Shown in pieces: positions 8,311 to 63,186 of a DNA stretch of 64,000 nt; positions within the stretch are counted from its first letter, which is position 1; every line of letters starts with the position of its first letter. Origin of the DNA: Sulfuricurvum sp. (lineage in GTDB: Bacteria; Campylobacterota; Campylobacteria; Campylobacterales; Sulfurimonadaceae); assembly GCA_030694265.1 (NCBI GenBank), contig JAUXYP010000002.1:1-64000 (forward strand). The letters run 5' to 3'. Position numbers and translations under genes: made by a program. Under the pieces are notes generated by a model. The model saw only the letters and a program-made list of their open reading frames with translations. It did no database searches and was not told where the DNA came from.

Positions 8311-9339
8311 ATGAAATTATTGAAACAAATTATTCCGACACTATTCCTTAGCGTGACGATTATGACATCATTGAGCGCAAATGATGAATACATTCCAAGC
8401 AATAACAAAAATCTTGCGGTTGAATATACTTTGGATAACAAGGATATTGTATTTGATAAAGCTTTTTTTGATTTTACTGTAAAACCTTTGGAAAAGATAG
8501 GTTTTTTTCTGAGTGATCCGCATCATAACGTGAATCTTGTCTATGAAGAATTAAAGGGTGAAACTTCTTTGAGTCAGTTATCATTCTCCTCTCTTGTCAG
8601 TGATGATAAGGCAAGACCTCTTTTTAACAAAGACCCTAGAATAGGTGGTTTTACCCCATTTAACTTGGTTATTTATAGAAAAAAATCAGATATGAAAACG
8701 GTTATAACCCATATTACGCCAGAGGCTGCGCTGGATATACTTCATATAACTGATAAAGATGTCCGAGATCAATACATTGCTATGTATAAGCCGCTTGATG
8801 AATTGATAGAAAAAGAGTATGGTGGCAATGCTAAAAAAAGCTATACAAAAATTCAAGGCTATGCTAAAAAGAATATGATGAACTTTGAGATACCTTTTGA
8901 GCAACCGGAGGATATTGATGACTTTTTTGAGAAATTTCAAGAAAAATTTGAAACAACATTTCAAACCAAGGGCTATATCATTGCCGGTTTTTACAATATG
9001 AAGTCCAGTTTAAATTCCGACAAAGATGTACTTCCTATTTACTCCAATTTTGTAGTTTGGTCCCTTTGCCATATCCCATTTTCTTATACCATTTTTGATG
9101 GTAAAGATCCATTACCTGAAGCGGCGGTTTTTGCACCATGCTCTATGTACGCGTACATAAAAGAAGGTGAAAATAAGATAGTCATTGGTATGCCGACACT
9201 AACTGCCTGGGCAGCAGCTTTAGGGATTACAGACAAAGAGAAGCTTCAAAAAATAGACGAGCTTGATGCGGAAATCCCAGCAATCATCAGAGGGCTGGGA
9301 GGCGTTGATGTATCTAACGCGAATCCTTTAACGAAGTAA
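8311..9339 (+). CDS. exported DUF302-like two-repeat protein, paralogue 3
   Basis: A 342-residue protein with a signal peptide ending near SLSAN. It resembles paralogue 1 closely: LSDPHHN against LSDPHEH, IGGFTPFN against LGGFSPFN, KGYIIAGF against KKYIIAGY, SLCHIPFS (Cys253) and FAPCSMY (Cys277). The first repeat again lacks cysteine. AGAGG lies before the start. Its stop codon abuts the stop of the opposite-strand gene with no base between. Function unknown; see the findings on this family. Confidence 0.65.
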   Translation: MKLLKQIIPTLFLSVTIMTSLSANDEYIPSNNKNLAVEYTLDNKDIVFDKAFFDFTVKPLEKIGFFLSDPHHNVNLVYEELKGETSLSQLSFSSLVSDDKARPLFNKDPRIGGFTPFNLVIYRKKSDMKTVITHITPEAALDILHITDKDVRDQYIAMYKPLDELIEKEYGGNAKKSYTKIQGYAKKNMMNFEIPFEQPEDIDDFFEKFQEKFETTFQTKGYIIAGFYNMKSSLNSDKDVLPIYSNFVVWSLCHIPFSYTIFDGKDPLPEAAVFAPCSMYAYIKEGENKIVIGMPTLTAWAAALGITDKEKLQKIDELDAEIPAIIRGLGGVDVSNANPLTK

Positions 9340-33281: not shown

Positions 33282-33352
33282 AGGATTTGTTGCTCCGTGT
33301 TTTAGTAGGTGTATTTTAGCCAAAAGAAATGGGTTTATCAATGGAAAGGAGA

Positions 33353-46514: not shown

Positions 46515-47747
46515 TTATACTCTCTTAACTTTATGCTTGTATATCAATAAATATTCAATTATATTAATAAAAGCAACTACGAGAAGAATATAGCTTCCAT
46601 ACATGTATGCAGCTATTGGAGGATAATAAGGAGTAAAACTACTAGATAAAAGTCCTATGGCCAAAAATAAGATATATTGCTTGGAGTAAAGAAGTAATAC
46701 AATCATTAGAAAACCTAGAAAAGCGCTCGCGTAAGCGATAACTTCATTGCCCACTTTATATCCAATGGAATAAGATTGGAATATATTTAAAAGTGCGTTT
46801 TTTATAGCAAGTTTTGGATTTTCTGAAAGTATTCTAAAATATTCTTTTTTGAGGATTTGATAATATTCATCAATCAGTTGAGGATCATTGATATTGGTGC
46901 TATTCATTTTTTTTCCAGTTTGATTGTAAAAAAACTTATATCCTTCTTCGTCCGCCAATTGGATGTTATAAGGGTTTTTGTAAGCGCCTATTCCTACATA
47001 CATTGTATGCCATGGGGCTTGTGAATGGGATGGGAAGATGAGTATTAGCATTAAGAAGCTTATGCATGCCAAGATGGAACTTCTCCAACTTTCTCTATAT
47101 CCGTATAATAGAAAAATAAACAATACCAGAAAAAGAACCGTGGCGCGTACAAAATACATATAAGCCAATATGCCTACTAAAGCAAAAATCCAATATCCCA
47201 ATTTTTTATTACTGAGAAAATACCAAAGAAATACAAATGCAGGGATAACTTGCCAAAAATAATAAAAAGGGTAATTCACGAAATAAAGTACGATAGGATT
47301 TAAACCATATAGAAGGTAGAATAAAATCTTTAGATAATCTTTTTTGAAAAACTGCATGGTTGTGTAAACTATGATGATGTGTGTAGTATACTGCAGCCAT
47401 TGAACTGCTGTCAAATCTCCCAAAAAAAAGAAAATCTTTTTAGCAATAAGTAAAATGTACATAAACCCAATCGGTAGGTAATCATAGTTAATAAGAATTG
47501 TATTTGAGGGAAATTTATAATTAAACTGTTGCTCTGTAGAGAGCATGCTAAATTGCTTTATTTGATCATAATTTACATTCATGATAAAAGGATTGTTTAG
47601 ATCGAAGTTTGCAGCAGCAGAGAGGTATGGAGCAATCCAATAAGGACTCATTCCCTGATTAAAATCCATTAGCATTAAAGCAAGTAATAATCCAGCCAAT
47701 GAAATTATCCAATAGATCACTTTTAAGTTATTCTGTATCAATTTCAC
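46515..47747 (-). CDS. multi-pass membrane protein, possible GT-C glycosyltransferase
   Basis: A 410-residue protein with about 9-10 hydrophobic segments and a large polar loop at about 235-300 (YVGIGAYKNPYNIQLADEEGYKF). The layout resembles GT-C enzymes that use lipid-linked sugars in the periplasm. Placed one gene before gtrB-gtrA in the transcript, it could be the serotype-specific GtrC-type transferase of that set. No catalytic motif was confirmed. It overlaps the upstream gene by 20 bases. Confidence 0.55.
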   Translation of the reverse strand: MKLIQNNLKVIYWIISLAGLLLALMLMDFNQGMSPYWIAPYLSAAANFDLNNPFIMNVNYDQIKQFSMLSTEQQFNYKFPSNTILINYDYLPIGFMYILLIAKKIFFFLGDLTAVQWLQYTTHIIIVYTTMQFFKKDYLKILFYLLYGLNPIVLYFVNYPFYYFWQVIPAFVFLWYFLSNKKLGYWIFALVGILAYMYFVRATVLFLVLFIFLLYGYRESWRSSILACISFLMLILIFPSHSQAPWHTMYVGIGAYKNPYNIQLADEEGYKFFYNQTGKKMNSTNINDPQLIDEYYQILKKEYFRILSENPKLAIKNALLNIFQSYSIGYKVGNEVIAYASAFLGFLMIVLLLYSKQYILFLAIGLLSSSFTPYYPPIAAYMYGSYILLVVAFINIIEYLLIYKHKVKRV

Positions 47748-48810
47748 CTACTTTTGTTAAAAGTTTATTATAGCGTGCTATTGCATAATGAGTATCTAAA
47801 AAATCGCTTATATCACTCTGTATCTCATAAAAAGACTCACTGAAAAAGTCAATCATTTCTTTGAATTGTTTGCTATTTTCACACCTGGCTATGACATTTT
47901 TTGGTGCTTCAAGTAAATGTGGCAGGGATGAATAAATAAGAGGAATACCATATGATAGCAGTTGAAACGCTCGATTACTTATAGTGATGGCATCGACTCC
48001 TGGAACGGTAACATCATAAGGTAAGAGACTGCAGCAAATATCGTCGAGAACGATTTTTTCAATGGGCATAGAATCAATAAATTCTACATTTTTGTAAGTT
48101 TGCAATTGTTTTACGTTTGCTTTTGCGCCAGATTCTATGTTTCCTATAAAGCGTATAGAGACATTATTGTTCAATAAATAGGTAATCAAATGCCAGTTGA
48201 TTCTGTGATCAATATACCCCCAAAATAAAACAACATTTCTTTTTTTATTAAGCTTTTTCGGTTCTTTATATTCGGTCTCAGCCCAAGGCAAAAAAAGATT
48301 GGTATTTTTATTGAATAGTGATAGATGCTTTACTAGCGGGTACGAAACAGCAAGCACAATATCTGAGTTATTGCATGTACTTTGTAATTGCATAGAGATG
48401 GAGTTTTTCATCCAAGATTTACCTTGAGCAACAAAATCATCATTGATAATAGTGATTATTGGAGTAGATGGAAAAAGATTTTTTAAGAAATCATAGTCGT
48501 AATTAAAATTAATGATAAGGTCTTTTTTTAAAGATTTTGTCAAAAATCTTATAATAGTGCTAGCAATCAAGTTATTGAATAAGATCAAAGTATTACAAAA
48601 TCTCAATTGATGGTGAAGCAATTCAAAATGACGAAAAAATGTGACACCTTCTTCATTTCTCATGATAGTGGCTATCTGCTTGAAGCTAGACTTTTCAAAA
48701 AAGGTCACCTTGTGTCCTTGGGATACCATCAAGCGAGTAAGTTGATGCCTGAGGCGTGGAGGTTCTTCCCATAACGTTTTAGAAAAAATAAGGACGTTTT
48801 CGTATTTCAT
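47728..48810 (-). CDS. glycosyltransferase, GT-B fold
   Basis: A 360-residue protein with the two-domain pattern of GT-B enzymes. The N-terminal half has NVLIFSKTLWEEPPRLRHQL and INFNYDYDF. The C-terminal half has VVLFWGYIDHRINW, IRFIGNIES and VDAITISNRAFQLLSYGIPLIYS, where the Glu-x7-Glu of family 4 is replaced. The family is not certain; it is probably a glycan chain transferase. It overlaps its neighbours by 20 and 4 bases. Confidence 0.7.
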   Translation of the reverse strand: MKYENVLIFSKTLWEEPPRLRHQLTRLMVSQGHKVTFFEKSSFKQIATIMRNEEGVTFFRHFELLHHQLRFCNTLILFNNLIASTIIRFLTKSLKKDLIINFNYDYDFLKNLFPSTPIITIINDDFVAQGKSWMKNSISMQLQSTCNNSDIVLAVSYPLVKHLSLFNKNTNLFLPWAETEYKEPKKLNKKRNVVLFWGYIDHRINWHLITYLLNNNVSIRFIGNIESGAKANVKQLQTYKNVEFIDSMPIEKIVLDDICCSLLPYDVTVPGVDAITISNRAFQLLSYGIPLIYSSLPHLLEAPKNVIARCENSKQFKEMIDFFSESFYEIQSDISDFLDTHYAIARYNKLLTKVGEIDTE

Positions 48811-50141
48811 GATAGTTGTATTTTCTTTATAATTTCTATACCTGTTAATGATTTTACATTATTTTGGTGAAGTTCTTTTAGTGTCGGTTCATAAACTTTG
48901 CTAAGCCAAGTGGACCATTCATCAGAACAATTTCCAGGATGCCAAAGGAAAGAAAAAATACCATTATATTTTTTAATTTCACTGATCATCTTTTGCAGTA
49001 ATTTGTAAGATGTATCTTCAGATATCCTCATGTATTGCTTCAGTGTTACATCCATAGCATTTAAAGGTATTTCATACAGCTCTAAAATAGCTTCTTGATC
49101 AAGATCATATACCTGGAAGGGTAAGCAGGTACCTCTTCGAAAACCTATCATATCAACAAAGCCAAGTGTTGAATCATATTGAAAAAGTTTATTCTGATAT
49201 TGTGCTGTTTCGCAGATATTGTTCATTAGATAATGCTGCCTAACTCCATCAATATTGAAATTAAATAAATCTTTTTCTTCCTTTAAAAATAAGCTGTTTT
49301 TGTACGATGCAATCGTTGCGTGAAGCCCAACCTCAAATTTATTAAATTTAATCTTCTTCATTATGTCAACTATCACTTGATCCGTAATATTATAAAAGTT
49401 ATCTAATTTTTCTCGAATTTTGGATATAAAGAAAAAGGTTGATTTAAATCCATATTTTTTGGATTCTTCGATAAGGTAGTCAAAGCCTAAAAAATAAGGA
49501 TCGTTTGTTTGATTGTATTTACTTTTTAAAAATTCAATAAAACTAAACTTTGATGGTTTTAAAAATATTTTTGCGAGTGATTTAATACTGCTCCTATATT
49601 TATAGATACCATCCACGTCATGGCTTAGAAATAGTGCATATTCTTTATCCGACCAAATATTTTTTCTTACGCACAAAATTCCAATTTGATTTAATAACGT
49701 AATCATATAATCTCTATATTTTTCAACCATAGGTTCAGTATAAATTCGATCATTTTTGTAAAGAGAAAACTCAAAAAGAAATCTTTGATATTTGTCTCGT
49801 TTTAAATTAAGGTACTCTTCATATCCACTTAATAAAAAGAATGTACTTGCGATAATATCTTGATCGTAAGGATATACGATGTCATTAATTTTTTTTAGCG
49901 GCGATTGCGGTAGTGAGTTTTGTTTTTTATAGTTTTCCCAAAACTTCATGTCAGCTTTTAAGTAAATCTTGGATTTTAGTATGAATTCATCATTCACGCC
50001 GTAAATAATGTCAGCGTTATTTTGATTGGTTATAAATTCAAATTTAGTATCAATATATCTGAATATTTCCGTAAAGGTATATGCGGCAATTTTGTGATCA
50101 ATTTTGTGATCAAGAAATATTCTTACAATTAATTTATCCAT
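48807..50141 (-). CDS. polysaccharide deacetylase-like protein (carbohydrate esterase 4 fold)
   Basis: A 444-residue protein with a DUF7033-like N-terminal part and a C-terminal NodB-like domain: FLSHDVDG at about 172-178 (TFDD-type motif with metal Asp), FEVGLHAT (metal His), YDSTLGFVDMIGFRRGTCLPF, and FLWHPGNCSD. No signal peptide, so it would act on cytoplasmic precursors such as lipid-linked glycan. It may remove an N- or O-acetyl group. It overlaps both neighbours (4 and 8 bases). Confidence 0.75.
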   Translation of the reverse strand: MDKLIVRIFLDHKIDHKIAAYTFTEIFRYIDTKFEFITNQNNADIIYGVNDEFILKSKIYLKADMKFWENYKKQNSLPQSPLKKINDIVYPYDQDIIASTFFLLSGYEEYLNLKRDKYQRFLFEFSLYKNDRIYTEPMVEKYRDYMITLLNQIGILCVRKNIWSDKEYALFLSHDVDGIYKYRSSIKSLAKIFLKPSKFSFIEFLKSKYNQTNDPYFLGFDYLIEESKKYGFKSTFFFISKIREKLDNFYNITDQVIVDIMKKIKFNKFEVGLHATIASYKNSLFLKEEKDLFNFNIDGVRQHYLMNNICETAQYQNKLFQYDSTLGFVDMIGFRRGTCLPFQVYDLDQEAILELYEIPLNAMDVTLKQYMRISEDTSYKLLQKMISEIKKYNGIFSFLWHPGNCSDEWSTWLSKVYEPTLKELHQNNVKSLTGIEIIKKIQLS

Positions 50142-51132
50142 TTATGCTTCTATATACTTTTCGTAAACCTTGTCCAAAAAAGTATAGTGGTTTAGCAAGC
50201 CAAGAAGGTATTGATACAATTGCTATTGCGTAAGCGTATTCATGCTTCGATCCATGAAAAACAAACTGTATGTCATTCAAATTTTTTAGCGTGATGTTAA
50301 GCCCTTTGGATTTTGATGCTAATATATTCAAAAAAGCGGACTTGAGATAAAGCTTTTTGATATAGTTAAAAACACTTTGATCGATTTTGGCATGATTTAA
50401 AGCAGTTCTATATACCCTTAGCTTCCCAATTTCAGTTTCATAGAGCATTTGGCCATCTTTGTATTTCCAAGATTCAGCGGGAACTCTGCATAATACATAA
50501 TTTGGGTCTGCAACAACAAAAACATCAGCATTTTTTGAGTGCTCAAGCCATACACCTACTTGTACATAATATGTATCAAAATAATCTTCATATACAGGAT
50601 TGTCCCAAAAGTGTTTCTTCATGATTGTTGCAGGTAAAAAAGTTGGGGCAAGTTTTATCTTTTGAAAGTAGTTGATATGATCTTCAAAATACATATCATT
50701 CTGTATGCTTAACTTAGGAGGCATTACTTCATACTGCAGGGTATCATCTACAAATTTGTAATTAAAATAAATAAAATTTACTTCATCATGCTCTTTGATG
50801 ATTTCAATGGCTTTATCTATTGCACCTCTTTGGAGAATATCATCTTGACCACATAACCAAACATACTTTCCTTGGGCTTTTACTGCTGTGGCCGTAAAGT
50901 TTCTATCCATTCTTAAATTTTCTTTATTTTGATATATAGAAATAAATGGAAATTTTTCAGCATATTCTTTAGCAATAATGAATGTTTCGTCTGTTGATTT
51001 GTCATCATTTATTATAATTTCAACTTGATGATCTTTTCTCTCGACAATTAGGCTATCTAGAGTTTCCCTTAACGTTTCTTGACCGTTATATGTTGGAATG
51101 CATATACTCATTAAATACATATTTAGCGCCAT
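50134..51132 (-). CDS. family 2 glycosyltransferase
   Basis: A 332-residue GT-A enzyme: SICIPTYNGQETL, EIIINDDKSTDET, and LCGQDDIL (DxD-like metal site), followed by an acceptor domain without clear membrane helices. The start could be at residue 5 or 8 (MYLMSICIP). It overlaps the CDP-alcohol phosphotransferase gene by 10 bases and the deacetylase-like gene by 8. Donor and acceptor unknown. Confidence 0.82.
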   Translation of the reverse strand: MALNMYLMSICIPTYNGQETLRETLDSLIVERKDHQVEIIINDDKSTDETFIIAKEYAEKFPFISIYQNKENLRMDRNFTATAVKAQGKYVWLCGQDDILQRGAIDKAIEIIKEHDEVNFIYFNYKFVDDTLQYEVMPPKLSIQNDMYFEDHINYFQKIKLAPTFLPATIMKKHFWDNPVYEDYFDTYYVQVGVWLEHSKNADVFVVADPNYVLCRVPAESWKYKDGQMLYETEIGKLRVYRTALNHAKIDQSVFNYIKKLYLKSAFLNILASKSKGLNITLKNLNDIQFVFHGSKHEYAYAIAIVSIPSWLAKPLYFFGQGLRKVYRSING

Positions 51133-51854
51133 TTTAAATTATTGTTATCTAGCTCAGTATTAATTTTTATCATATATAAGATATTTTTAAGTAAATTAAA
51201 TAGAATGATAAACAGTAATATAAAAAACATATAGATAACAATTTTTTCTATAAATATAAAACCTAGGTAAATCATAAAGTTGCCCTGCATTAAAAAAAGG
51301 TTATTATATAAATATTTTTTTATTAATCTATAGGATATGTTATTTATAGAAGAAAAGAATGTTTGATCATTTTCTTTTTTTATGTGTATTGATAAAATAT
51401 TTGATCTATATTTGATCATGTATCGTAAGAATGAATAGAGTAGAAATAAGGTCGATGTCAAAAAAGTTAAAATCCAAATGTTCGATTCATTATAATATAT
51501 CCCTGCTAATAAAAATATAGTTATTATTTTTACTTGATCTGTAAAATGGTCATAAAAGCTACCCTGAGCACTTTGTTGTTTTGTTTCTCTTGCAACCATT
51601 CCATCACTAATGTCTAATAATAGTGCGAAGGTCCAAAAAGAAAAGAAGGTCCAAAAATTATTTTCAAATATAATAAAATAAAAACTAAGCAAGGCTGTGA
51701 TGTTTGATAATGTTGTTATTGTATTAGGTTTTAATTTAAGCTTTATGCATAAAATTGACAAGGGAATAGAGGCCATATATAGTAAATTAAGGAATGGAAT
51801 ATCTGTTCCAGCCCCATTGAAAAATTTTTTATAATAGGTTATTTTACTGTTCAT
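51123..51854 (-). CDS. CDP-alcohol phosphotransferase family protein, candidate phosphoramidate transferase
   Basis: A 243-residue membrane protein with the complete family signature: Asp81-x2-Asp84-Gly-x2-Ala-Arg-x8-Gly-x3-Asp102-x3-Asp106, and about six membrane segments. The family transfers a substituted phosphate from a CDP donor to a hydroxyl and releases CMP. The gene overlaps by 4 bases (ATGA) the Cj1416-like cytidylyltransferase, the step that makes a CDP-linked product. CDP-linked phosphoramidate is therefore a plausible donor. Transfer of an ordinary CDP-alcohol such as CDP-glycerol is the alternative. C. jejuni uses unrelated transferases (Cj1421/Cj1422) at this step. Confidence 0.75.
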   Translation of the reverse strand: MNSKITYYKKFFNGAGTDIPFLNLLYMASIPLSILCIKLKLKPNTITTLSNITALLSFYFIIFENNFWTFFSFWTFALLLDISDGMVARETKQQSAQGSFYDHFTDQVKIITIFLLAGIYYNESNIWILTFLTSTLFLLYSFLRYMIKYRSNILSIHIKKENDQTFFSSINNISYRLIKKYLYNNLFLMQGNFMIYLGFIFIEKIVIYMFFILLFIILFNLLKNILYMIKINTELDNNNLKWR

Positions 51855-52597
51855 ATTAGATAATCTTTGTATGCAATCAAGTCTTCAGTACTGTCAATTT
51901 CAATCCATCCACCATTGATTAATACAGGTTTGACGTTCATTAAGTTGTCTATAATCAATTGTACTAGGCTTGTCATATACATATTGTCATAATCTTTTGC
52001 ATCGTATAATTGTTTTTTATCCAAAGAATCGTAATAAGCAATTACCTTATTAATTGTATTTTTTGATATTTTGATCAGACCAATGTATTGCCCTTCTATC
52101 TCATCATAACTGTTCGCTTTTTTACCTAATTCTATAATATTGCCATCTTTTATTTTTAATGTTTCCGCATCATCTAGTGGGTTGTCCATCCTTAAAGACC
52201 ATAACTCTCTCCAGCCCTTATCCACAACAACACTGAACTCTTCTTCTGAACTTATGAGCTTTTGCAATATCTCTTTTTTATAAATTATGTCGGCATAGGA
52301 GATAATCAAGTCGTCATCCATAAACTCTTTTGCACAAAAGAGAGTTGAAACCATATTCGTTTTGTCAAAATTAGTATTCGTGAAAAAAGTACATCCTTGG
52401 TCTTTTAAGTATTCTTCCAATACTTCTTGCTTGTATCCGTTGACAATAGCTATGTTTTTTATATTACATACTTTCGCTGTTTCTAAAATATAATCAATGA
52501 TTGGTTTGTTGTTATACTCAACCATACATTTCGGTTTGTCATTGGTCAACGGTCTTAATCTAGTGCCCTGTCCGGCGGCTAAAATTATCATTTTCAT
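51851..52597 (-). CDS. nucleotidyltransferase, probable CTP:phosphoglutamine cytidylyltransferase (Cj1416-like)
   Basis: A 248-residue nucleotidyltransferase: LAAGQGTRLRPLTNDKPKCM at 6-25 (NTP loop and Lys), ISYADIIY with metal Asp, and GGWIEIDSTEDL near the end. By motif alone it could be a LicC-type phosphocholine or sugar-phosphate cytidylyltransferase. Context favours Cj1416: genes for a glutamine kinase-like and a C26 amidohydrolase-like enzyme are in the same tightly packed operon. In C. jejuni Cj1416 joins CTP and L-glutamine phosphate. It overlaps the CDP-alcohol phosphotransferase by 4 bases and lies 2 bases from the CysQ-like gene. Confidence 0.75.
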   Translation of the reverse strand: MKMIILAAGQGTRLRPLTNDKPKCMVEYNNKPIIDYILETAKVCNIKNIAIVNGYKQEVLEEYLKDQGCTFFTNTNFDKTNMVSTLFCAKEFMDDDLIISYADIIYKKEILQKLISSEEEFSVVVDKGWRELWSLRMDNPLDDAETLKIKDGNIIELGKKANSYDEIEGQYIGLIKISKNTINKVIAYYDSLDKKQLYDAKDYDNMYMTSLVQLIIDNLMNVKPVLINGGWIEIDSTEDLIAYKDYLI

Positions 52598-52599
52598 AG

Positions 52600-53349
52600 T
52601 TAAAACTCCAAATTATTTCTGCTCGCGATAAAGTAACTGTTTTTAATATTTTTTTTATTATATAGAAGTTCTGCTTTACTCCTTATATCTATCAATTTGC
52701 ATCCCGCCTCATTAGCAATGATATGCCCAGCAGCAGTATCCCACTCTTTGGTTCCGTTAAAACGAGGGTATACATCGATTTCTCCTTCTGCTAATTTACA
52801 AAGTTTAATGGAGGATCCGAAACGCAGTATATTGGTTATATTGTTATTTTTTAAGAAAGTTAACGTCTCTTCTGTAGAATGAAAAATACTGTCCGTAGCT
52901 ATTAAATCTTTTCGTGTGGATCGGTTGTAGATTTTCATATTATCTTTATAGGCACCTGATCTTTTTTGAGCAAAATAGGTTGTTGCTGAAACCGGTACAT
53001 ACACTACTCCCATTACGGGATAATTATTTTCTATTAAAGCGATATTGACCGTGAATTGCCCATTCTTGGCAATAAAGTCTTTTGTCCCGTCAAGGGGATC
53101 AACTATCCAAAAACGATTCCAAGTTTTTCTAATTTCATAAGGTACGGGAGTCTCTTCGGAAAGAATGGGGTAGGAGCTTTTACTCTGTAATAAATCTTTA
53201 ATAATAGCATCTGCAACGTAGTCTGCTTTTGTTACAGGAGAACCGTCTGATTTTTCGACTATTTCCATACTTGCAGAACTATTGTAGATGCTTAAGATGG
53301 CTTTGCCTGCTTTTTGAGCAATTTCATTCAGGACTTCTTGTGTGATCAA
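52600..53349 (-). CDS. CysQ-like 3'(2'),5'-bisphosphate nucleotidase / IMPase-family phosphatase
   Basis: A 249-residue Li-sensitive phosphatase-fold protein: LSEETP (metal Glu65/66), WIVDPLDGTKDF (Asp84, Asp87) and EWDTAAGH. CysQ removes 3'-phosphate from PAP-type nucleotides. In this operon a more specific job is possible. The C. jejuni pathway makes a 3'-phospho-CDP-amidate, whose use would release a 3'-phosphorylated CMP needing such a phosphatase. It overlaps the Cj1417-like gene by 4 bases, which supports a shared pathway. Ordinary CysQ function in sulfate assimilation cannot be excluded. Confidence 0.8.
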   Translation of the reverse strand: MITQEVLNEIAQKAGKAILSIYNSSASMEIVEKSDGSPVTKADYVADAIIKDLLQSKSSYPILSEETPVPYEIRKTWNRFWIVDPLDGTKDFIAKNGQFTVNIALIENNYPVMGVVYVPVSATTYFAQKRSGAYKDNMKIYNRSTRKDLIATDSIFHSTEETLTFLKNNNITNILRFGSSIKLCKLAEGEIDVYPRFNGTKEWDTAAGHIIANEAGCKLIDIRSKAELLYNKKNIKNSYFIASRNNLEF

Positions 53350-53984
53350 TGATAATTCTCGTTAAAAATTTTTTGTATTAAGCTCACTTCATTTTCTTTG
53401 AAAGGGGTTTCTCTTTCTGAATGCCACATTTGTCCAAAAATACGGTATTTTTTATGTTCAACTGCTTTAATTGTTCCGTCAGGCGAAGTGGCGGAGGGTA
53501 TTAAATCTTTACCTAAAGTATCGATCGCAAAATTATGAAAGGAGTTCACTTCACCAAGTTCTATAAGATCTTTTGAATAACGAGAATTTTTATTGATATT
53601 GAGATTATGGTAAACGGCCACATGTCCGGCCACTTTTCTAAAATTTGACCCAAAATATTCTGCAATCACCTGAAGTCCGCGACAAATCCCAAATAAAGGA
53701 ATACTGTTTTCAATAGCAAATTTGATTAATCCTTTCTCATACACATCTCTTTGTTTTGAAAGGGAGTTCTCATTAACACTGTTGAGATCATTTCCACCGG
53801 TTAAAAGTATTCCGTCAATTTTGAATTCTGTAAAGTAGTCGTTAAAATCTATTTCATATGGAAGTATTATTGGTAAAAAACCAGCGGTACGGATTAGTTT
53901 GGAATATTGTATATCAAGGGCTTCTCTTGTTTCATTATAGGACAAATTAGCAATTAGGCGTTGAGTAATAGCAATCTTTTTCAT
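53346..53984 (-). CDS. class I glutamine amidotransferase-like C26 hydrolase (Cj1417-like)
   Basis: A 212-residue protein of the gamma-glutamyl hydrolase group. The triad is visible: Cys101 in LFGICRGLQVI, and His188 and Glu190 in GQMWHSERE; LLTGGNDL is the conserved loop before it. In C. jejuni Cj1417 hydrolyses gamma-glutamyl-CDP-amidate to glutamate and cytidine diphosphoramidate. Overlaps of 4 bases on both sides couple it to the glutamine kinase-like and CysQ-like genes. A PuuD-type role is less likely because no putrescine genes are near. Confidence 0.8.
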   Translation of the reverse strand: MKKIAITQRLIANLSYNETREALDIQYSKLIRTAGFLPIILPYEIDFNDYFTEFKIDGILLTGGNDLNSVNENSLSKQRDVYEKGLIKFAIENSIPLFGICRGLQVIAEYFGSNFRKVAGHVAVYHNLNINKNSRYSKDLIELGEVNSFHNFAIDTLGKDLIPSATSPDGTIKAVEHKKYRIFGQMWHSERETPFKENEVSLIQKIFNENYH

Positions 53985-56314
53985 AATACTATTCTCACTT
54001 GTTTGTTGAGTGCGTCTATCTCTAGAACAGAAGCTTTACAATAGAGATCAAAATTACTCTCTCCACAGCCTATAACTGCCGGAATTCCCATTTCTGCACA
54101 ACGAATAGCCATATGGGAGTTCGCGCCTCCATAGCAGGTTAGAAGACCGCTTATATTTTTGGAGAATAGATAATCATATCCAGGATCAGCTGAACGAATA
54201 CAGACTATTTTTCCCTCAACCTGGGTACAGTGAATATTTTCTTCTAAAACTATATCTGATTCAATTTGTTTATGCGTAATGAAATTGGCTTCGCCGGGTT
54301 CAAGATAAAAACTGTATATCTCTTCCGGTTCAACTATAACACTGGGTAGTTTAATAGCTTTGGTAAATTCATAGTATTGACGATTTTTTGAAATATCTGA
54401 TTCTAAAATATCTTTGACATCTCTATGATCCAGTGTTGAATATAAAGTAAGGATTTTTTGTATATCCAAATAAGCAAGCTCTTCTCGAGTAAAACCAAAT
54501 TTTTCACCCAGTTCTTCGATATATTTTAATATTTGGCTTAAATGTTTGGTGAAAACAAATTTTGAGTACTCTCTTCCCTCAATCGAGTCTTTTATAAACG
54601 TTATTAAATGGTCGAAATTTGAGTTTAGTCCATTTTCGATAAGTAAGGTGTTTATCGTCGATACTTGATCATTAGAAAATGAAAATTGGTGTTCTTCATT
54701 ATGATCAATTGTATGTTTGGAGCTAAAATAAGCGTCATATGCCTCATCATATCGCTGTGACAAAATATCATATGTACCGGGACGTAAGTGTCCATATTTT
54801 TGCAAAAATAGATTTTTATCTAGGGTTTGAGTATCCAGAGATAAATTTTTGGATACCGTATTAAGAGACTTCAAAAATGCGTCATATTCATGTTGCGTAA
54901 TGATTTTTTGTTCTACAAAAGATTGTAAAAGCTGCACTGCTATAAAAGCCGCCCTTGCGATTCCGGCGAATGGAAGTGTCCCGTAGCGTTTTACATCTTG
55001 GATCAGCCAATATATTTTATCAATTAAAGAAAGCTCTGATTTGACGATATCATCGTATTTTTTGTTTAAACTCTCAATTTTTAGAAGATCTTTTTTATAA
55101 AGTCCATGTTCTTCATCCATGATATTGTTGGTTAACGATAAAAGAGCCTTTTCAATCGATACCAATTCTTCTTGGCTGAAACCATATTTTTTTAAAGTTT
55201 CTAATTTGTTTGAAATTCCCAAAAAATAGCATGAGAAGACAATTTTAAACTCTATTTTATCGTGATGATCCGTGTTTTGTGTCAGCATGGATAAATAGTA
55301 GTTAACCAGTTTTGAAGCAATTTCATCATCTAATGTTTTGGGTACGAACGAGTTGAAAGAAACTCTCACATCGATGAACGGAACACCTAAGAAAGAGATT
55401 AAAAGTGGATGTGAACGGAGATTTCTGTATCCGTAGTTGTCTCTTTGATATGCCCATGTTTCATCGGTGATCAGTTCTTTATATAAAGACAACGCGAGTC
55501 TTTTCGGACGAAGGCCAATGATTTCTGCAGGATTCCAATCGGGCATTACGCCGAAAATAGTTTTGTCGCCCAGTAAGTTTGGATGAGGTGCATTGAGTTT
55601 TTGGATTTTCTTGTATATTTTTTTCAAACTGGATGAGAGATCAATATGAGATAGAGACTCTTTATTCTCAGAAACGATGGCCCTGACCTGTAGAATATAC
55701 AGTTCATCATTGCTAAAAGCAAATTCGATATCTAAAAACGTATGATTAAAAATACCTTCACACTCTTTTGCTGCTTCAATCAGTCGTTGGAGTTTATTAT
55801 CGGAAAAGTTTTTACTCTCTTTGAAAGAAACAAATGTCTTTAGATTATTGCCTAAGCCGCCTGTAACACTACTGGTAGAACCGCTTTCATCATAATTTAC
55901 AATATAGTATGGGCTCAGAGTATCTATGTCAGCAGTAAAAATTACTCCTGACATAGTCACTTCTTTAATCATCGGTTGCACGAAAACTTCATCATTACTA
56001 TCAGATTTGTCTTGATACGAGTCTATGACTTGTTGTATTGCCAAATTAAGGTCATGAGAGGATGATGATTCGACATCCATAATTGAATCAAATCCGCCGG
56101 CATTGGAAGTTTGTTCGTTATCCTCATTTTGAGAAGATGACCGAACAATCACTTGCTGTTTGAAAGTTTGACGTATCTGATTAAGATAAAAGTTTTTGTC
56201 ACTTTTGTATTCGTTAACTGTAAAACGGATAAGAGGGAGAATTTTAGCTCTTGTTAAATGCGGAGCTAAAATTTCTAATGTTTTAGCTTTTGAAGAGAGA
56301 GAAAGAGTTAACAT
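53981..56314 (-). CDS. PEP-synthase-like kinase, probable L-glutamine kinase (Cj1418-like)
   Basis: A 777-residue three-domain enzyme. The N-terminal ATP-grasp region shows VIRSSSQNEDNEQTSNAGGF and TGGLGNNL. The C-terminal swivelling domain shows CYGGANSHMAIRCAEMGIPAVIG with the phospho-acceptor at about His734. A pyruvate/PEP-binding TIM barrel is absent, so it is not a PEP synthase; the long middle part is helical. Cj1418 has this plan and phosphorylates the amide nitrogen of L-glutamine using ATP, the first step to capsule phosphoramidate. The 4-base overlap with the Cj1417-like gene supports this. The 93-base gap upstream holds only an imperfect 6-bp hairpin (56363-56383). Confidence 0.85.
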   Translation of the reverse strand: MLTLSLSSKAKTLEILAPHLTRAKILPLIRFTVNEYKSDKNFYLNQIRQTFKQQVIVRSSSQNEDNEQTSNAGGFDSIMDVESSSSHDLNLAIQQVIDSYQDKSDSNDEVFVQPMIKEVTMSGVIFTADIDTLSPYYIVNYDESGSTSSVTGGLGNNLKTFVSFKESKNFSDNKLQRLIEAAKECEGIFNHTFLDIEFAFSNDELYILQVRAIVSENKESLSHIDLSSSLKKIYKKIQKLNAPHPNLLGDKTIFGVMPDWNPAEIIGLRPKRLALSLYKELITDETWAYQRDNYGYRNLRSHPLLISFLGVPFIDVRVSFNSFVPKTLDDEIASKLVNYYLSMLTQNTDHHDKIEFKIVFSCYFLGISNKLETLKKYGFSQEELVSIEKALLSLTNNIMDEEHGLYKKDLLKIESLNKKYDDIVKSELSLIDKIYWLIQDVKRYGTLPFAGIARAAFIAVQLLQSFVEQKIITQHEYDAFLKSLNTVSKNLSLDTQTLDKNLFLQKYGHLRPGTYDILSQRYDEAYDAYFSSKHTIDHNEEHQFSFSNDQVSTINTLLIENGLNSNFDHLITFIKDSIEGREYSKFVFTKHLSQILKYIEELGEKFGFTREELAYLDIQKILTLYSTLDHRDVKDILESDISKNRQYYEFTKAIKLPSVIVEPEEIYSFYLEPGEANFITHKQIESDIVLEENIHCTQVEGKIVCIRSADPGYDYLFSKNISGLLTCYGGANSHMAIRCAEMGIPAVIGCGESNFDLYCKASVLEIDALNKQVRIVL

Positions 56315-56407: not shown

Positions 56408-57205
56408 TTAAGCCACTTTTTTGGCAATAACAATTATGATATTTGAAAATTGGGAAGGAAAAAATTTATTCAAAAATTTATCAAGCGCTTTCCCTACAAT
56501 ATTCAATTGAAAGCCTTTACTTCTAGCTTGTTGTTCGTTAAAACTATTTTTCTTTAGAGCTTTACTTCTTAATAAGTCAAATTTGAAGAGAAATGAAACG
56601 TTTCTAGCGTAAAAAGCATCTTCAATTTCCAAGGAATTTTTACCAAATAATGCTTTGATATCGTCAAGTGAAAATTGCAGTTTGTGAAATTTATCAAATA
56701 CTTTATTCGGATTTTGTTTTTGAACTATGTATTCTGTGAGTCGGTTTTCAATATTGTCTGCTCTTACGGATGCTAAGATTCTTCCACCTGTTTTTAATAC
56801 TCTGGCGCTTTCTTTTACCGAATCTTCTAGCATTTGTTCATCTTCAAAATTATGATAGAGCCCTAAAGCCAAGAGTGTATCAAATTCGCCGTCTTTGTAG
56901 GGCATATTACAGACGCTTCCCTCAATTACATCTGCTTCCGTGTCTTGTTTTTTTATATTTTCTACTGCTATTGGACTGTATTCTAAACCACTTATTTTGT
57001 ATCCAAGATGTTTATAATGAAAAAAAACTCTTCCTGCCCCACAACCGGCTTCTAATATCTTATGCTCTTTATCCCCTATAACCATTTGCGTATATTTGAT
57101 CGGATAAATATCCATATTTTCAAACTTTGCGCTGTCAACTCCAGAATCTGACCATCTTTGATTCCAATAGTCACTGTTTTCCAGTGCTCTGTAAACTTTT
57201 CTCAT
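56408..57205 (-). CDS. SAM-dependent methyltransferase (Cj1419/Cj1420-type candidate)
   Basis: A 265-residue class I methyltransferase. The SAM-binding motif ILEAGCGAGRVFFHY is near residue 50, then ISGLEYSPIAVENI, and ALGLYHNFEDEQM. The N-terminal RKVYRALENSDYWNQRW is distinctive. In C. jejuni two methyltransferases next to Cj1418 complete the O-methyl phosphoramidate group; this gene sits directly before the Cj1418-like gene in the transcript, so the same role is a fair inference. Only one such gene is present in this module. Methylation of a sugar remains possible. Confidence 0.75.
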   Translation of the reverse strand: MRKVYRALENSDYWNQRWSDSGVDSAKFENMDIYPIKYTQMVIGDKEHKILEAGCGAGRVFFHYKHLGYKISGLEYSPIAVENIKKQDTEADVIEGSVCNMPYKDGEFDTLLALGLYHNFEDEQMLEDSVKESARVLKTGGRILASVRADNIENRLTEYIVQKQNPNKVFDKFHKLQFSLDDIKALFGKNSLEIEDAFYARNVSFLFKFDLLRSKALKKNSFNEQQARSKGFQLNIVGKALDKFLNKFFPSQFSNIIIVIAKKVA

Positions 57206-57241: not shown

Positions 57242-58444
57242 TCACTCTGCATCGTTCTTCTTCTTTAGTAACTTTTCATATAAGATATTGGAAATAAGTT
57301 CATTCCCTTTATTGCTATAATGACCACCATATTCACTTTTTTCAGAGTAGAGAGAATCTAGTTCATCTGAAGAATATTCTTTAAGATTTTCAAATATATC
57401 AATACATATAATATCGTCCGGAATATGGTCTATAAGAGTCTTGTAAAAATGCTCTTTTTTAGTTTGTATATATTTTACATCATCTTTTTGTGGCATCACT
57501 AATATACATGGTTTGAAATTATACTCTTTTGCTAAGGATTTAAACAATTTCAATTCTTCAATTAATAGGTCTGTGTTGTTTTTATCTTTATATAAATTTA
57601 CTCTATATTCTAAATTTTTATTCATAATGTAGTCAGTAGGTTCGTCGATCTGGCCTTTTTTAAGTGTTTCAACTGATAAAGAGAAGTTTCTTCTCAAGTT
57701 TTTAAAGAAGTGTAGTGAGTAGGGAAATGTGATTATCTCTTTTAAAAATTTATTTTTGTAAAAATAATCGTATTGTTGTATCAGCTTAATATATTTTTCA
57801 TAGGTAGTAAATTTATCTTTGCTATTAATGATATTATCGATGAGTTTTATTTTTCCGTCGGCTAAAACGTACCTTGGTTTGAAACCGAAAATATTTCCAT
57901 ACTCGTAGTAATGCTTCCAGACACTTAGAATTCGTGATATCGTATCTGGTACGACTCCGATGATGACAATTTCAGGTCGGAAATTTTCTGATTTTAATTT
58001 TGTATTTAACTTGATGAGAGCTTGATCAAATCCGTAATTTCCGACGCCAAAATTCTGGACATTTGATTGGGTAAGTAATGAGAGCTTATAGCCCCATGTT
58101 TCATTGTCGTTGACTTCACGAGCGAATGTAAATGAGTCTCCAAAAAGGGATATGAAGCTTTTTTGATGGTTGTATTCTAAATTATCACGTGCTCCTACTG
58201 CATTAATATTCCAATAAACTGTGCCGTATTTCCCTTTTTCATTGCCTGAAGTATTTGGTTGTCTATCCCATCCTAGGAGCCGATCATAGCTTTTTGAAAG
58301 TACTTTTTCCAGAATTTCTTTAGTAAATTTCGGTTTTTTATCTTTGTTTATGATATACCATTGGTTCTTTTTTCTTACATATAGTGAAAATATAAAAAAT
58401 ACAATTTCTATCAAAACGAGAGATAAAATTATTTCATTGAACAT
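57242..58444 (-). CDS. membrane-anchored SGNH/GDSL-like protein
   Basis: A 400-residue protein with an N-terminal membrane segment (about 4-24) and a likely extracytoplasmic SGNH domain: SLFGDSFTF (Ser104), NFGVGNYG (Gly/Asn oxyanion residues about 133-136), and GGHYSNKGN (His375). The catalytic Asp usually three residues before His is not evident (Tyr-Gly-Gly-His). The family includes esterases and acyltransferases acting on polysaccharides. Its gene lies between the Cj1415-like kinase (11-base overlap) and the methyltransferase, which hints at a role in placing or removing the same substituent. Confidence 0.65.
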   Translation of the reverse strand: MFNEIILSLVLIEIVFFIFSLYVRKKNQWYIINKDKKPKFTKEILEKVLSKSYDRLLGWDRQPNTSGNEKGKYGTVYWNINAVGARDNLEYNHQKSFISLFGDSFTFAREVNDNETWGYKLSLLTQSNVQNFGVGNYGFDQALIKLNTKLKSENFRPEIVIIGVVPDTISRILSVWKHYYEYGNIFGFKPRYVLADGKIKLIDNIINSKDKFTTYEKYIKLIQQYDYFYKNKFLKEIITFPYSLHFFKNLRRNFSLSVETLKKGQIDEPTDYIMNKNLEYRVNLYKDKNNTDLLIEELKLFKSLAKEYNFKPCILVMPQKDDVKYIQTKKEHFYKTLIDHIPDDIICIDIFENLKEYSSDELDSLYSEKSEYGGHYSNKGNELISNILYEKLLKKKNDAE

Positions 58445-58934
58445 TAAGAGCTTTTTTAAAAATACGAGAGGCTATCTCTTCGGGGAACAAGCCATCTTCT
58501 ATATTGTTTTCAATAGTTAAATCTGATTTATAGGGAGTTGGGAAATCTATATCTACCCCAACTATATCCTTTTTATTATCGTAAATACCTCTGCCATCTC
58601 TCTGTTTCAACGTCTCATCTGAGGCTTTTAAATAAACTTGGAAATAGTTTTCTACCCTATCTCTTATTGATTTTTGCACATCTGGAAAAATAGAGAGTAA
58701 AGCAAATACGACATTAATCTTTTGGCTATCCATATATACACAAAATTCTTCAATTCTTTTTGCATTTTTGTATCGATCTTCTATGGTATGCCCCAAATCA
58801 TTCCCCATCATCTCTCTGAAGATATCACCGTCCATAAAAACTGTATTAGAATGTAATAGTTTAATTTGTTCTGCTAAATATTTACCGACGGTACTTTTTC
58901 CCACACTGGATTTTCCGATAAGCCAAATAACCAA
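58434..58934 (-). CDS. CysC-like kinase, probable cytidine diphosphoramidate kinase (Cj1415-like)
   Basis: A 166-residue P-loop kinase of the adenylylsulfate kinase fold: WLIGKSSVGKST (Walker A, 5-15), FMDGDIFREMMGNDLGHTIEDR, and QRDGRGIYD in the lid. It starts with TTG, seven bases after GGAG (58942-58945). C. jejuni Cj1415 is annotated as CysC but phosphorylates the 3'-hydroxyl of cytidine diphosphoramidate. The rest of that pathway lies downstream in this operon and no sulfate adenylyltransferase is nearby, which favours that role. It begins 1 base after the flippase gene ends. Confidence 0.78.
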   Translation of the reverse strand: MVIWLIGKSSVGKSTVGKYLAEQIKLLHSNTVFMDGDIFREMMGNDLGHTIEDRYKNAKRIEEFCVYMDSQKINVVFALLSIFPDVQKSIRDRVENYFQVYLKASDETLKQRDGRGIYDNKKDIVGVDIDFPTPYKSDLTIENNIEDGLFPEEIASRIFKKALNVQ

Positions 58935-60401: not shown

Positions 60402-62168
60402 CTATCTCGTTAACTTTAAAATTATATTTTCTAAAATGCACTTGTCTCCTATCGCCTTATTGATAAAAGACTTTCTTGCTTTTTGTGTATTCTCGGACAT
60501 CCACCAATCCAAAGGATCATGTTCTATTTCCATTAGAAAAAGTGCAGCTTTGATAGGATCAGCATGAAGAATATTTGCCTCTATTAATTCACTAAAAAAT
60601 TCGGCACCAGATTTTGAAAAATAGGCATTCTGGTTTAAAAAAACAAGAGTAGGAATATTATTCATAAGTGCTTCCAGATAACCACTCCCAATATAGTCAA
60701 TTATTACAAGTTTAGAACTCGACATTGCGTCAAGGCCACTATATACGCCTGTATCATCGTGCATTAAATCAGTATATGGTTTTAATATAGCTTTTTGATT
60801 ATAAGTAGCGATGTCTTTTACTTTCATTATTGGTGCCATTCTGTAAATCATTCTAGAAAAAATATTTTTGTCTAATGAAGAAAAAAAACTTTTTTGAAAT
60901 TCAAAGGTATATTTTGAGTCTTCACCCATGAAAAAATTATCATGAAAATAATTAGTTCTTTTTGCGTAGATTGGCGCTGTCATATAAAGTATCTTATCCT
61001 TATATTCTTTTAGATCTTTTGGATTGTTTGTTGTGTCATTTAAAAGCCCTGCTGGAGTTAGTTTGAAATTTTGGTCAAGTTGTTTATCATACCACCCAAT
61101 TGTCAGATATTCATCACATAAATCTAATGTTTCTTTAAACTCACTATTTTCAAAAATATGAGTCATTCCCCTATGCTCTGAATTGATAAACTTTACATTA
61201 TTTTCTTTTTGTAAATGAGCGATTAAAAAAGACATCGCATTATTACTAATCCAGAGTTCACTTATGACATATTTTGCTGATGAATATTGTTTCGCTTGCT
61301 TCTCATAATATGTGGCTGCTTGAAGATAATTTTCAATAAAGATATTAGGGAAGAAACTTTCAGTTGTTTTAAAAAAGAATTTATCAAATTTGTCAAAGTC
61401 ATTTTGCCATGACGATAGAAGCTGTCTTTTTTCTGTTGAGAGATTTGAATTGATAAGATCTAATGGTTGCATGTTATGAAGAAAAATTTTAAATTTACTT
61501 TTAAATATCAAGCTATGAATTCTAGAAGATGCATAGCCCACTCCTAGCAATATTACATTTGGTTTAAGGATTGACATCTTGCTATAAACATAATAGATTA
61601 TTTGTTTCACTAAAGATGGATGGGGCTCATTTATAGATGATCGGTACTTTTTTAGATCAATCAATTTTTTTTTGTCATCAACTGAACTTGGGTAATAGAA
61701 GTTTACGTATATCGCGAATAATTGCTCATTAGCAATATCGCTATAAGATAAATAAGTCCGCAAATCTTCTAAGTCCATTGGTGTATAAAAATCCGAATTA
61801 TCTAAAAGATAAAAATCGTGATTGTCGTGATCAAATCTCTCCTCAACTTGATTGTAAAATTCATAGACTAAAGAAATATATCTTTTTAATCCACGATAAA
61901 ATGTTTGCTTCCAATACTTGTCACTATTTGAAATATTATGTATTTGATTTAACCGCTCAGATAATATTTTTACATACCTTTTGTGCCGAGTTATAATGTT
62001 TTGTTCATATTCTACCCAATCAGTTAATGAGTTTCTTGGGCAATTATGTAATTTATCCACTTGTAATTCAGGATTATTAAGAGCTATAAAGTTATCTAAA
62101 ACTGCCGTCTTCCTATTAATATCACTTGGCTTAGATAGAGAAGACACTACGAAGTGCTTTTTAAGCAT
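60402..62168 (-). CDS. LIC12162-like putative transferase
   Basis: A 588-residue cytoplasmic protein. The N-terminal segment (LSERLNQIHN, then SDKYWKQTFYRGL) and the C-terminal segment (VIIDYIGSGYLEALMNNIPTLVFLN, FFSELIEANILHADPIKAA, PLDWWMSE) match what I recall of the LIC12162 transferase family of surface-sugar loci, whose substrate is unknown. The C-terminal half looks like a GT-B donor domain. The gene is AT-rich and carries an A9 run on the coding strand (61665-61673 as T on +). Its start overlaps the next gene by 8 bases. Confidence 0.6.
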   Translation of the reverse strand: MLKKHFVVSSLSKPSDINRKTAVLDNFIALNNPELQVDKLHNCPRNSLTDWVEYEQNIITRHKRYVKILSERLNQIHNISNSDKYWKQTFYRGLKRYISLVYEFYNQVEERFDHDNHDFYLLDNSDFYTPMDLEDLRTYLSYSDIANEQLFAIYVNFYYPSSVDDKKKLIDLKKYRSSINEPHPSLVKQIIYYVYSKMSILKPNVILLGVGYASSRIHSLIFKSKFKIFLHNMQPLDLINSNLSTEKRQLLSSWQNDFDKFDKFFFKTTESFFPNIFIENYLQAATYYEKQAKQYSSAKYVISELWISNNAMSFLIAHLQKENNVKFINSEHRGMTHIFENSEFKETLDLCDEYLTIGWYDKQLDQNFKLTPAGLLNDTTNNPKDLKEYKDKILYMTAPIYAKRTNYFHDNFFMGEDSKYTFEFQKSFFSSLDKNIFSRMIYRMAPIMKVKDIATYNQKAILKPYTDLMHDDTGVYSGLDAMSSSKLVIIDYIGSGYLEALMNNIPTLVFLNQNAYFSKSGAEFFSELIEANILHADPIKAALFLMEIEHDPLDWWMSENTQKARKSFINKAIGDKCILENIILKLTR

Positions 62169-63186
62169 TATTTAACTTCTCATTCAGATTTTGATAATCT
62201 TTTACTTGCCCAATATCTATCCAGTCTTCAATGATTTCATAACTCTTTATTATTTTATTCTCACGCTTCAAAGCGTCAAAAAGACTTGGCAAATCGAAAA
62301 ATTCATTTTTAGGAATATAGCTTAGTACCTGAGGATCAAGTATATAAATTCCAGTATTAATAAAAAAATCTCTAATTGGTTTTTCTTGCATATTTACTAT
62401 ATTGTTTTCCTTGTCTACTTCTATCACACCATAAGGTATTTGGTGACTATGTTTCACTATACACATTGTTGCTAGTGATTTACTTGTATCATGAAAATTC
62501 AGTAATGATAGGTAATTCATTGAGGATAGTACATCACCATTTACGACAAAAAATGATTCTTGTAAATCGCTATTTATTAAGCTTAACGCTCCTCCTGTTC
62601 CAAGCCTTTTCGTTTCTTCAGTATATTCTATCTCTATTCCAAAGTCACGGCCATCTTTAAAATAGCTTTTAATAACTTCAGATTTATAATTCACACTTAA
62701 TATAAATTTGTGAAATCCGTGATGTGTAAACATATTTATTATATGCTCTAACATAGGTTTATTGCCAACTTTAAGCATTGGTTTAGGAATGTCTTTTGTA
62801 AGATCACCGAGTCTTGTCCCAAGGCCACCTGCCATAATAACAACCCTATTCGGCCTACTTGAAATATCTTCTAAACATATAAAGTCAACAAGTTTATTAT
62901 TTTCATCAACTAGCGGGGCATGTCTTCTATGATTATTTTGTAGAGCTTTTAAAGCAGTTGCCTTACTCATTGAACTATTTAATATAAAAGGTGTTCTGTT
63001 TATAATTGAATCCAGGTTTAGTGTTTTATTAAGTACCGCTTTTCTTATATCATAATCAGTGATTAGTCCTATAAAGTTGTTGTATGTGTCGACAACTGGC
63101 AAACCAAAAATATTATTTTTATCCAATAGTTCTATTGCCTCTTCCAAGGTGGTTTTCTCACTAAGGATTAATTGATTATATTTCAT
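62161..63186 (-). CDS. CBS-domain nucleotidyltransferase (PtmE-like)
   Basis: A 341-residue fusion: two CBS motifs (about 1-112) then a sugar-phosphate nucleotidyltransferase with MAGGLGTRLGDLTKDIPKPML at 118-138, NGDVLSS (metal Asp), and EDWIDIGQVKDY. The architecture is that of C. jejuni PtmE, a glucosamine-1-phosphate guanylyltransferase that opens legionaminic acid synthesis. The CBS pair may sense adenine nucleotides. It lies 9 bases after the WbpG-like gene, which supports a nonulosonate-type or acetamidino-sugar locus continuing to the right. Confidence 0.82.
   Translation of the reverse strand: MKYNQLILSEKTTLEEAIELLDKNNIFGLPVVDTYNNFIGLITDYDIRKAVLNKTLNLDSIINRTPFILNSSMSKATALKALQNNHRRHAPLVDENNKLVDFICLEDISSRPNRVVIMAGGLGTRLGDLTKDIPKPMLKVGNKPMLEHIINMFTHHGFHKFILSVNYKSEVIKSYFKDGRDFGIEIEYTEETKRLGTGGALSLINSDLQESFFVVNGDVLSSMNYLSLLNFHDTSKSLATMCIVKHSHQIPYGVIEVDKENNIVNMQEKPIRDFFINTGIYILDPQVLSYIPKNEFFDLPSLFDALKRENKIIKSYEIIEDWIDIGQVKDYQNLNEKLNNA

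Follow-up and report, generated by a model that had tools for sequence, protein, structure and literature searches.

A CDP-alcohol phosphotransferase encoded beside glutamine kinase modules as a candidate phosphoramidate transferase in Sulfuricurvum sp.

Introduction

Capsule phosphoramidate is a rare P-N modification, which acts as a phage receptor in Campylobacter. In C. jejuni, the enzymes Cj1415-Cj1418 convert glutamine, ATP and CTP to CDP-phosphoramidate 3'-phosphate (PMC11800397), and mutants deleted for Cj1421 or Cj1422 each lack phosphoramidate on one of the sugars (PMC11800397; PMC3907429). A 2014 study of phosphoramidate considered that transferases of low similarity might exist (PMC3907429). 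That a cytidylyltransferase can be matched with a phosphotransferase recruited for surface decoration has a precedent in the CMP-aminoethylphosphonate pathways, where an unusual phosphorus group is activated by PntC and surface glycans are decorated by LicD-like transferases (PMC6697681). A further precedent is the inositol-1-phosphate cytidylyltransferase-CDP-alcohol phosphotransferase fusion IPCT-DIPPS (4MND), in which an NTP transferase is coupled to the phosphotransferase that would use its product.

Here, we describe a locus of Sulfuricurvum sp. in a stretch of 64,000 nucleotides (contig JAUXYP010000002.1, positions 1 to 64,000), referred to as the window. Like the C. jejuni capsule system, it has homologues of all four donor enzymes clustered in a surface-glycan locus. 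It differs from that system in that the genome has no DUF2972 transferase, the slot being occupied by a CDP-alcohol phosphotransferase-like gene (CDP-AP), and in that the module includes a CysQ-like phosphatase, as do many modules in genomes of one family (f2). With the CDP-AP superfamily (PF01066; PIPS/PgsA1, AF2299, CPT1/CEPT1) the encoded protein shares the full catalytic signature and, by a prediction of low confidence, may share the fold, but its partner is a phosphoramidate donor pathway and not a lipid or CDP-alcohol pathway. In contrast to IPCT-DIPPS, the genes are separate and overlapping, the NTP transferase is of the Cj1416 group, a glutamine kinase is present and no inositol pathway was seen; compared with the aminoethylphosphonate pathways, the bond is P-N instead of P-C and the transferase families differ. 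Besides the genome of the window (G000), two genomes are referred to by code, namely G395 from another family of Campylobacterota and G763 from Bacteroidota.

Results

The genes of the module are on the minus strand, in the order APS-kinase-like, SGNH-like, methyltransferase, glutamine kinase, Cj1417-like, CysQ, Cj1416-like, CDP-AP and glycosyltransferase from upstream to downstream. The Cj1418-like glutamine kinase (53981..56314) scored 1009 bits with NF004508 (cut-off 501), and the Cj1417-like gamma-glutamyl-CDP-amidate hydrolase (53346..53984; PF07722) matched NF045546 with E = 8.8e-58, under the cut-off of that profile. The Cj1416-like cytidylyltransferase (51851..52597) is an NTP transferase matching PF00483/PF12804, and the Cj1415-like (APS-kinase-like) CDP-phosphoramidate 3'-kinase (58434..58934; PF01583, E = 7.7e-22) reached 119 bits with NF004041, just under the cut-off of 127. 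The kinase, cytidylyltransferase, hydrolase and 3'-kinase homologues of the Cj1415-Cj1418 donor pathway are found together in the window, the Cj1417- and Cj1415-like proteins being below curated cut-offs, and the Cj1416-Cj1418-like neighbours are those that an earlier, sequence-only reading of the window had named.

Between the Cj1417- and Cj1416-like genes, and not mentioned in that reading, sits a gene for a CysQ-like 3'(2'),5'-bisphosphate nucleotidase (52600..53349; TIGR01331, 249 bits, cut-off 228.8), for which recycling of 3'-phospho-CMP is proposed. The SAM methyltransferase (56408..57205; PF08241) is 49% identical by blastp to one preceding the G395 glutamine kinase, and O-methylation of the phosphoramidate by this enzyme is possible. 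The SGNH-like protein of unassigned role (57242..58444) is without a Pfam family and was assigned to its fold by eye on account of a GDS motif; a relative on an Arcobacter contig (L075:1223-2392; phmmer, 190 bits) lies between an APS-kinase-like gene and a glutamine kinase. Downstream, the CDP-AP gene is overlapped by a family-2 glycosyltransferase gene (50134..51132; PF00535, E = 1.4e-23), whose product is 33% identical to that of L162:1537-2571, located 3' of the G763 module.

The surrounding surface-glycan locus also holds UDP-sugar dehydratase/epimerase genes and a CBS-nucleotidyltransferase. Proteins of the LIC12162 type are common to all three loci in which the CDP-AP was found (window 60402-62168, L034:4917-6614 and L162:10651-16108). 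The CBS-nucleotidyltransferase occurs in the window and G763 loci (window entries 60402-62168 and 62161-63186, with the LIC12162-type protein), and NeuB/NeuC are additionally encoded in G763. In view of these genes, a nonulosonic-acid-type sugar may be part of the glycan that is decorated. The locus further includes a PglB-like oligosaccharyltransferase (31134-33341), which scored 599 bits with NF050801, under the equivalog cut-off of 1300. Elsewhere in the window, several paralogous secreted-protein genes (384-1394, 7243-8214 and 8311-9339) were recognised by eye near sulfite-oxidase-like and cytochrome-like genes at the window start.

The CDP-AP gene (51123..51854, minus strand) encodes a putative membrane protein of 243 aa. 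PF01066 was the sole family matched in the profile search (E = 1.7e-14, 54.9 bits, cut-off 22), which places the protein in the superfamily. The signature DISDGMVARETKQQSAQGSFYDHFTD contains the acidic residues D81, D84, D102 and D106 as well as R89, and the pattern D(x2)DG(x2)AR(x8)G(x3)D(x3)D is intact (D81, D84, G85, A88, R89, G98, D102, D106); as D(x)2DG(x)2AR(x)8-9G(x)3D(x)3D it is intact in the proteins of the window, G395 and G763 alike. The sequence-only reading had described a CDP-alcohol phosphotransferase with all four catalytic Asp, coupled by a 4-base overlap to the Cj1416-like gene, and both details were borne out. At the minus-strand junction (...CTAATATGAAC...), ATGA combines the TGA stop of the Cj1416-like gene with the ATG start of the CDP-AP gene, the overlap being exactly four bases.

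The protein scored under the NCBIfam cut-off of every curated CDP-AP family (PIPS, archaetidylinositol phosphate synthase, PgsA, PssA, ClsA), with top scores of 54 bits for archaetidylinositol phosphate synthase (cut-off 180) and 38 bits for phosphatidylinositol phosphate synthase (cut-off 170). Among solved structures, its best sequence matches were cholinephosphotransferases. A predicted model of low confidence (pLDDT 63, pTM 0.48) agrees only loosely with the CDP-AP family fold: the first 16 Foldseek matches were all CDP-APs, none below E = 0.001, and the closest folds were AF2299 and PgsA1, with a VIA Z of 10.6 to AF2299. An earlier AlphaFold model obtained from a two-sequence input was set aside (pLDDT 52). 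The descriptions of the solved CDP-AP structures listed as sequence or fold matches mention no phosphoramidate or 3'-phosphorylated donor.

These top scores and folds would also suit an ordinary CDP-alcohol/CDP-diacylglycerol phosphotransferase, for instance for inositol- or glycerol-type decoration of a lipid or glycan, which lies in a phosphoramidate locus by chance. The principal alternative to phosphoramidate transfer is a function of this kind, in housekeeping or for CDP-alcohol lipids. However, the scores are far under all curated family cut-offs, and no gene for CDP-alcohol supply was recognisable in the window besides the Cj1416-like one.

Whole-genome searches for the CDP-AP covered 1,426 sampled genomes in overlapping sets, mostly from Campylobacterota and Bacteroidota, and revealed a subfamily of three members, comprising the proteins of the window, of G395 (38-40% identity) and of G763 (32%). 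At E <= 1e-10, the CDP-AP was present in 2 of 397 Campylobacterota genomes (the window's and G395), 75 of the 397 having a glutamine kinase, and it was found in one of 198 Bacteroidota genomes (G763, E = 2.3e-37). The G395 gene directly follows the kinase, Cj1417- and Cj1416-like genes and overlaps the latter as in the window, and the G763 gene adjoins a module in which an NTP-transferase/glutamine-kinase fusion comes first and a Cj1417- and a Cj1416-like gene come after it. Direct adjacency to a Cj1416-1418-like module hence applies to all three clade members from two phyla. We estimate the chance of direct adjacency at ~0.006 per genome and at ~4e-5 for G395 and G763 together, assuming kinase modules in one fifth of the genomes and ~60 genes per surface-glycan island; with the window as the discovery case, there are two independent confirmations of the linkage.

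Denser searches of the families of the window and of G395 (104 and 228 genomes) revealed no further members. No relative was found in a pattern scan of genome contigs with a two-sequence CDP-AP alignment, which gives poor patterns, and no close relative was found in viral contigs and plasmids. At 1e-9, the CDP-AP was found neither in 180 genomes from the phylum of a Gammaproteobacteria MAG (G670) nor in 139 from that of a Fusibacter genome (G647), both sets being thin samples without a positive control.

An alternative is that phosphoramidate is transferred by another protein of the locus, i.e., the SGNH-like protein, the product of 47728-48810 or the LIC12162-type protein, the task of the CDP-AP being unrelated. 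It would agree with the occurrence of LIC12162-type proteins in all three loci, the position of the SGNH-like gene beside the Arcobacter kinase and the fact that 47728-48810 had no family match in profile searches. The LIC12162-type genes, however, accompany nonulosonic-acid-type genes, suggesting sugar transfer, the other two genes are not common to the three loci, and the constant linkage of the CDP-AP would be left unexplained, making this alternative quite improbable.

In the phylogenetic tree, the three CDP-APs formed one clade (support 95/96) that excluded housekeeping CDP-APs as well as those of aminotransferase/NTP-transferase cassettes. The Cj1416-like protein of the window clusters with its counterparts from other glutamine kinase loci rather than with NTP transferases that are linked to a CDP-AP in other cassettes; it is 79% identical to that of the Sulfuricurvum locus L074, and the G763 protein is a distant branch of the same Cj1416 group. 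Since the Cj1416 partners are on distant branches while the CDP-APs form a clade, the CDP-AP accompanies divergent kinase modules.

Linkage of the closest relatives to CDP-alcohol pathways without glutamine kinase genes, which would have spoken against phosphoramidate transfer, was not observed for the clade; only much weaker CDP-APs (30-42 bits) occur elsewhere. In the stretches read around these next nearest proteins there was no glutamine kinase, and the partner was an NTP transferase of a different clade, or none. Bacteroidota do have pairs of NTP transferase and CDP-AP without glutamine kinase, as expected for an ordinary phosphotransferase, but these pairs are distant and belong to another clade for both proteins, and the adjacency of all three clade members to kinase modules in two phyla likewise argues against a chance position. 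We therefore regard an ordinary phosphotransferase as unlikely. Weak matches from Treponema and from the order of G763 proved to belong to other cassettes and were rejected; the parts of these loci that were read had no glutamine kinase. A separate cassette of adjacent aminotransferase, NTP transferase and CDP-AP genes, of unassigned function, was observed in the order of G763 (L165:7354-8986, L177:1-2815 and L179:10311-12984).

The known transferase family PF11186/DUF2972, which includes the Cj1421/Cj1422 relatives and NF058596 ('O-methyl phosphoramidate transferase'), was found nowhere in G000 or G395 in a whole-genome search that was positive for 56 of the 75 Campylobacterota glutamine kinase genomes. 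The sequence-only reading had noted the lack of a Cj1421/Cj1422 relative for the module, which thus extends to the whole genome, and the check that it suggested, whether the CDP-AP co-occurs with Cj1416-1418 homologues where these transferases are lacking, gave a favourable answer, with the module linkage and the absence of DUF2972 from both genomes. Absence of DUF2972 alone is not telling because 17 of the 75 kinase genomes lack DUF2972 and CDP-AP alike; for the same reason, the transferase question extends beyond the CDP-AP gene. Profiles for DUF2972, two sulfotransferase-like groups, PF04464-like proteins and LicD detected no transferase in the window or in the G395 and G763 neighbourhoods. 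A 'sulfotransferase-like' match at L034:13518-13916 was rejected, the 132-aa protein covering only profile positions 15-82.

Comparison with L074 revealed 83.6% DNA identity over 4.4 kb (window 56321-51897); the match extends from the kinase into the Cj1416-like gene, ending 46 bases short of its stop codon. Past the alignment end, L074 has a PF04464 (CDP-glycerol-transferase-like) gene (E = 4.9e-10), and the window has the CDP-AP gene. This swap of two unrelated CDP-dependent families at the same position is the strongest single argument for a slot that uses the CDP product of the module.

A pattern scan yielded 80 loci with a glutamine kinase, spread over many phyla, and no CDP-AP was found near the kinase in any of them; when 50 of the kinase genomes so obtained were searched whole, a single weak CDP-AP match appeared, in Treponema (4.5e-10). 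At ~120 other glutamine kinase loci, the transferase candidates were DUF2972, sulfotransferase-like, PF04464 and LicD proteins and none was a CDP-AP; many loci had no recognised candidate by profile classification. The sulfotransferase-like candidates include PF00685/PF13469 matches in L140, L088 and L080, and profile comparison of this group with DUF2972 gave a probability of 37%, which is suggestive only. Outside Campylobacter, PF04464-, LicD- and sulfotransferase-like candidates were seen at L074:4443-5726, L035:13808-14911, L036:12688-13818, L144:5747-8032, L140:7551-8729 and L088:7531-8679. Whether the CDP-AP is a phosphoramidate transferase and, in addition, the last module gene is an exchangeable slot for DUF2972, sulfotransferase-like, PF04464, LicD and CDP-AP proteins with the same donor appears evenly balanced to us.

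Concerning the donor, the sequence-only reading had proposed CDP-phosphoramidate. With a Cj1415-like kinase and a CysQ-like 3'-phosphatase as parts of the module, the 3'-phospho form is the likely donor in the window. CysQ-like genes were found at >80 bits beside 28 of 119 glutamine kinase modules, some species being counted twice (window 52600-53349; L038-L043, L074, L077, L080, L086, L089 and others), and an APS-kinase-like gene was in the stretch read for 22 of these 28. The 3'-phosphatase probably recycles 3'-phospho-CMP, as a counterpart of PAP recycling in sulfation. On the 98-kb G763 contig, no Cj1415-like gene was found; for this reason, the 3'-phosphate would not be essential if all three CDP-APs share one reaction, and it may be optional on the donor. 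An APS-kinase-like gene was missing from the stretch read in 11 of 13 loci with a long glutamine kinase versus 29 of 106 with a kinase of normal length. Kinases of >880 aa were observed in L035, L050, L062, L127, L133 and L162 (6364-9510), that of L162 with an N-terminal NTP-transferase-like domain.

Discussion

CDP-APs have an Asp-bound metal site and proceed by hydroxyl attack on the phosphorus distal to CMP. Judged from homology, the glutamine kinase, the Cj1416- and Cj1417-like enzymes and the Cj1415-like kinase would provide (3'-phospho-)CDP-phosphoramidate. The Asp/metal site of the CDP-AP would hold the cytidine diphosphate part and an acceptor hydroxyl would attack the phosphoramidate phosphorus, yielding acceptor-O-P(O)(O-)NH2 and CMP or 3'-phospho-CMP. 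CysQ would convert 3'-phospho-CMP to CMP, and the methyltransferase may yield the O-methyl form. From signature, operon and linkage, we are fairly confident that the CDP-AP transfers phosphoramidate from this donor, whatever the acceptor.

The acceptor is probably membrane-bound since the active site of CDP-APs faces the cytoplasmic membrane surface. Alignment of the three CDP-APs revealed R89 and K109 as the only conserved Lys/Arg residues; a phosphorylated acceptor is therefore unsupported by the sequences, and a neutral hydroxyl fits. The fold and the glycan locus would point to a lipid-linked glycan, as in the sequence-only reading, with a sugar hydroxyl as the attachment site; they also allow a lipid. 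With diacylglycerol or a polyprenol as acceptor, by analogy to choline/ethanolamine phosphotransferases and their CDP donors, the product would be a lipid that carries phosphoramidate or a lipid-linked intermediate that donates it later. In favour of a lipid, the best solved-structure matches are cholinephosphotransferases, for which a CDP compound is the donor and diacylglycerol the acceptor, and the conserved residues reveal no basic pocket that would suit a phosphorylated acceptor. Yet the CDP-AP gene lies in a glycan locus, overlapping a glycosyltransferase gene, and the close relative L074 has a glycan-type PF04464 transferase in the same slot, so that a lipid acceptor seems unlikely. We infer that the CDP-AP is the terminal phosphoramidate transferase of a surface-decoration pathway with a glycan acceptor, and assign this reading a probability of about 0.57.

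As the same pairing is found in three distant genomes of two phyla, the CDP-AP probably provides a second route, besides the known one, for attachment of the phosphoramidate tag. Which family occupies the transferase slot can differ even in closely related genomes. Many genomes with donor genes are without the known transferases, and the CDP-AP is a specific candidate whose fold differs from theirs. If the proposed function is true, phosphoramidate would be a new donor type for the CDP-alcohol phosphotransferase superfamily.
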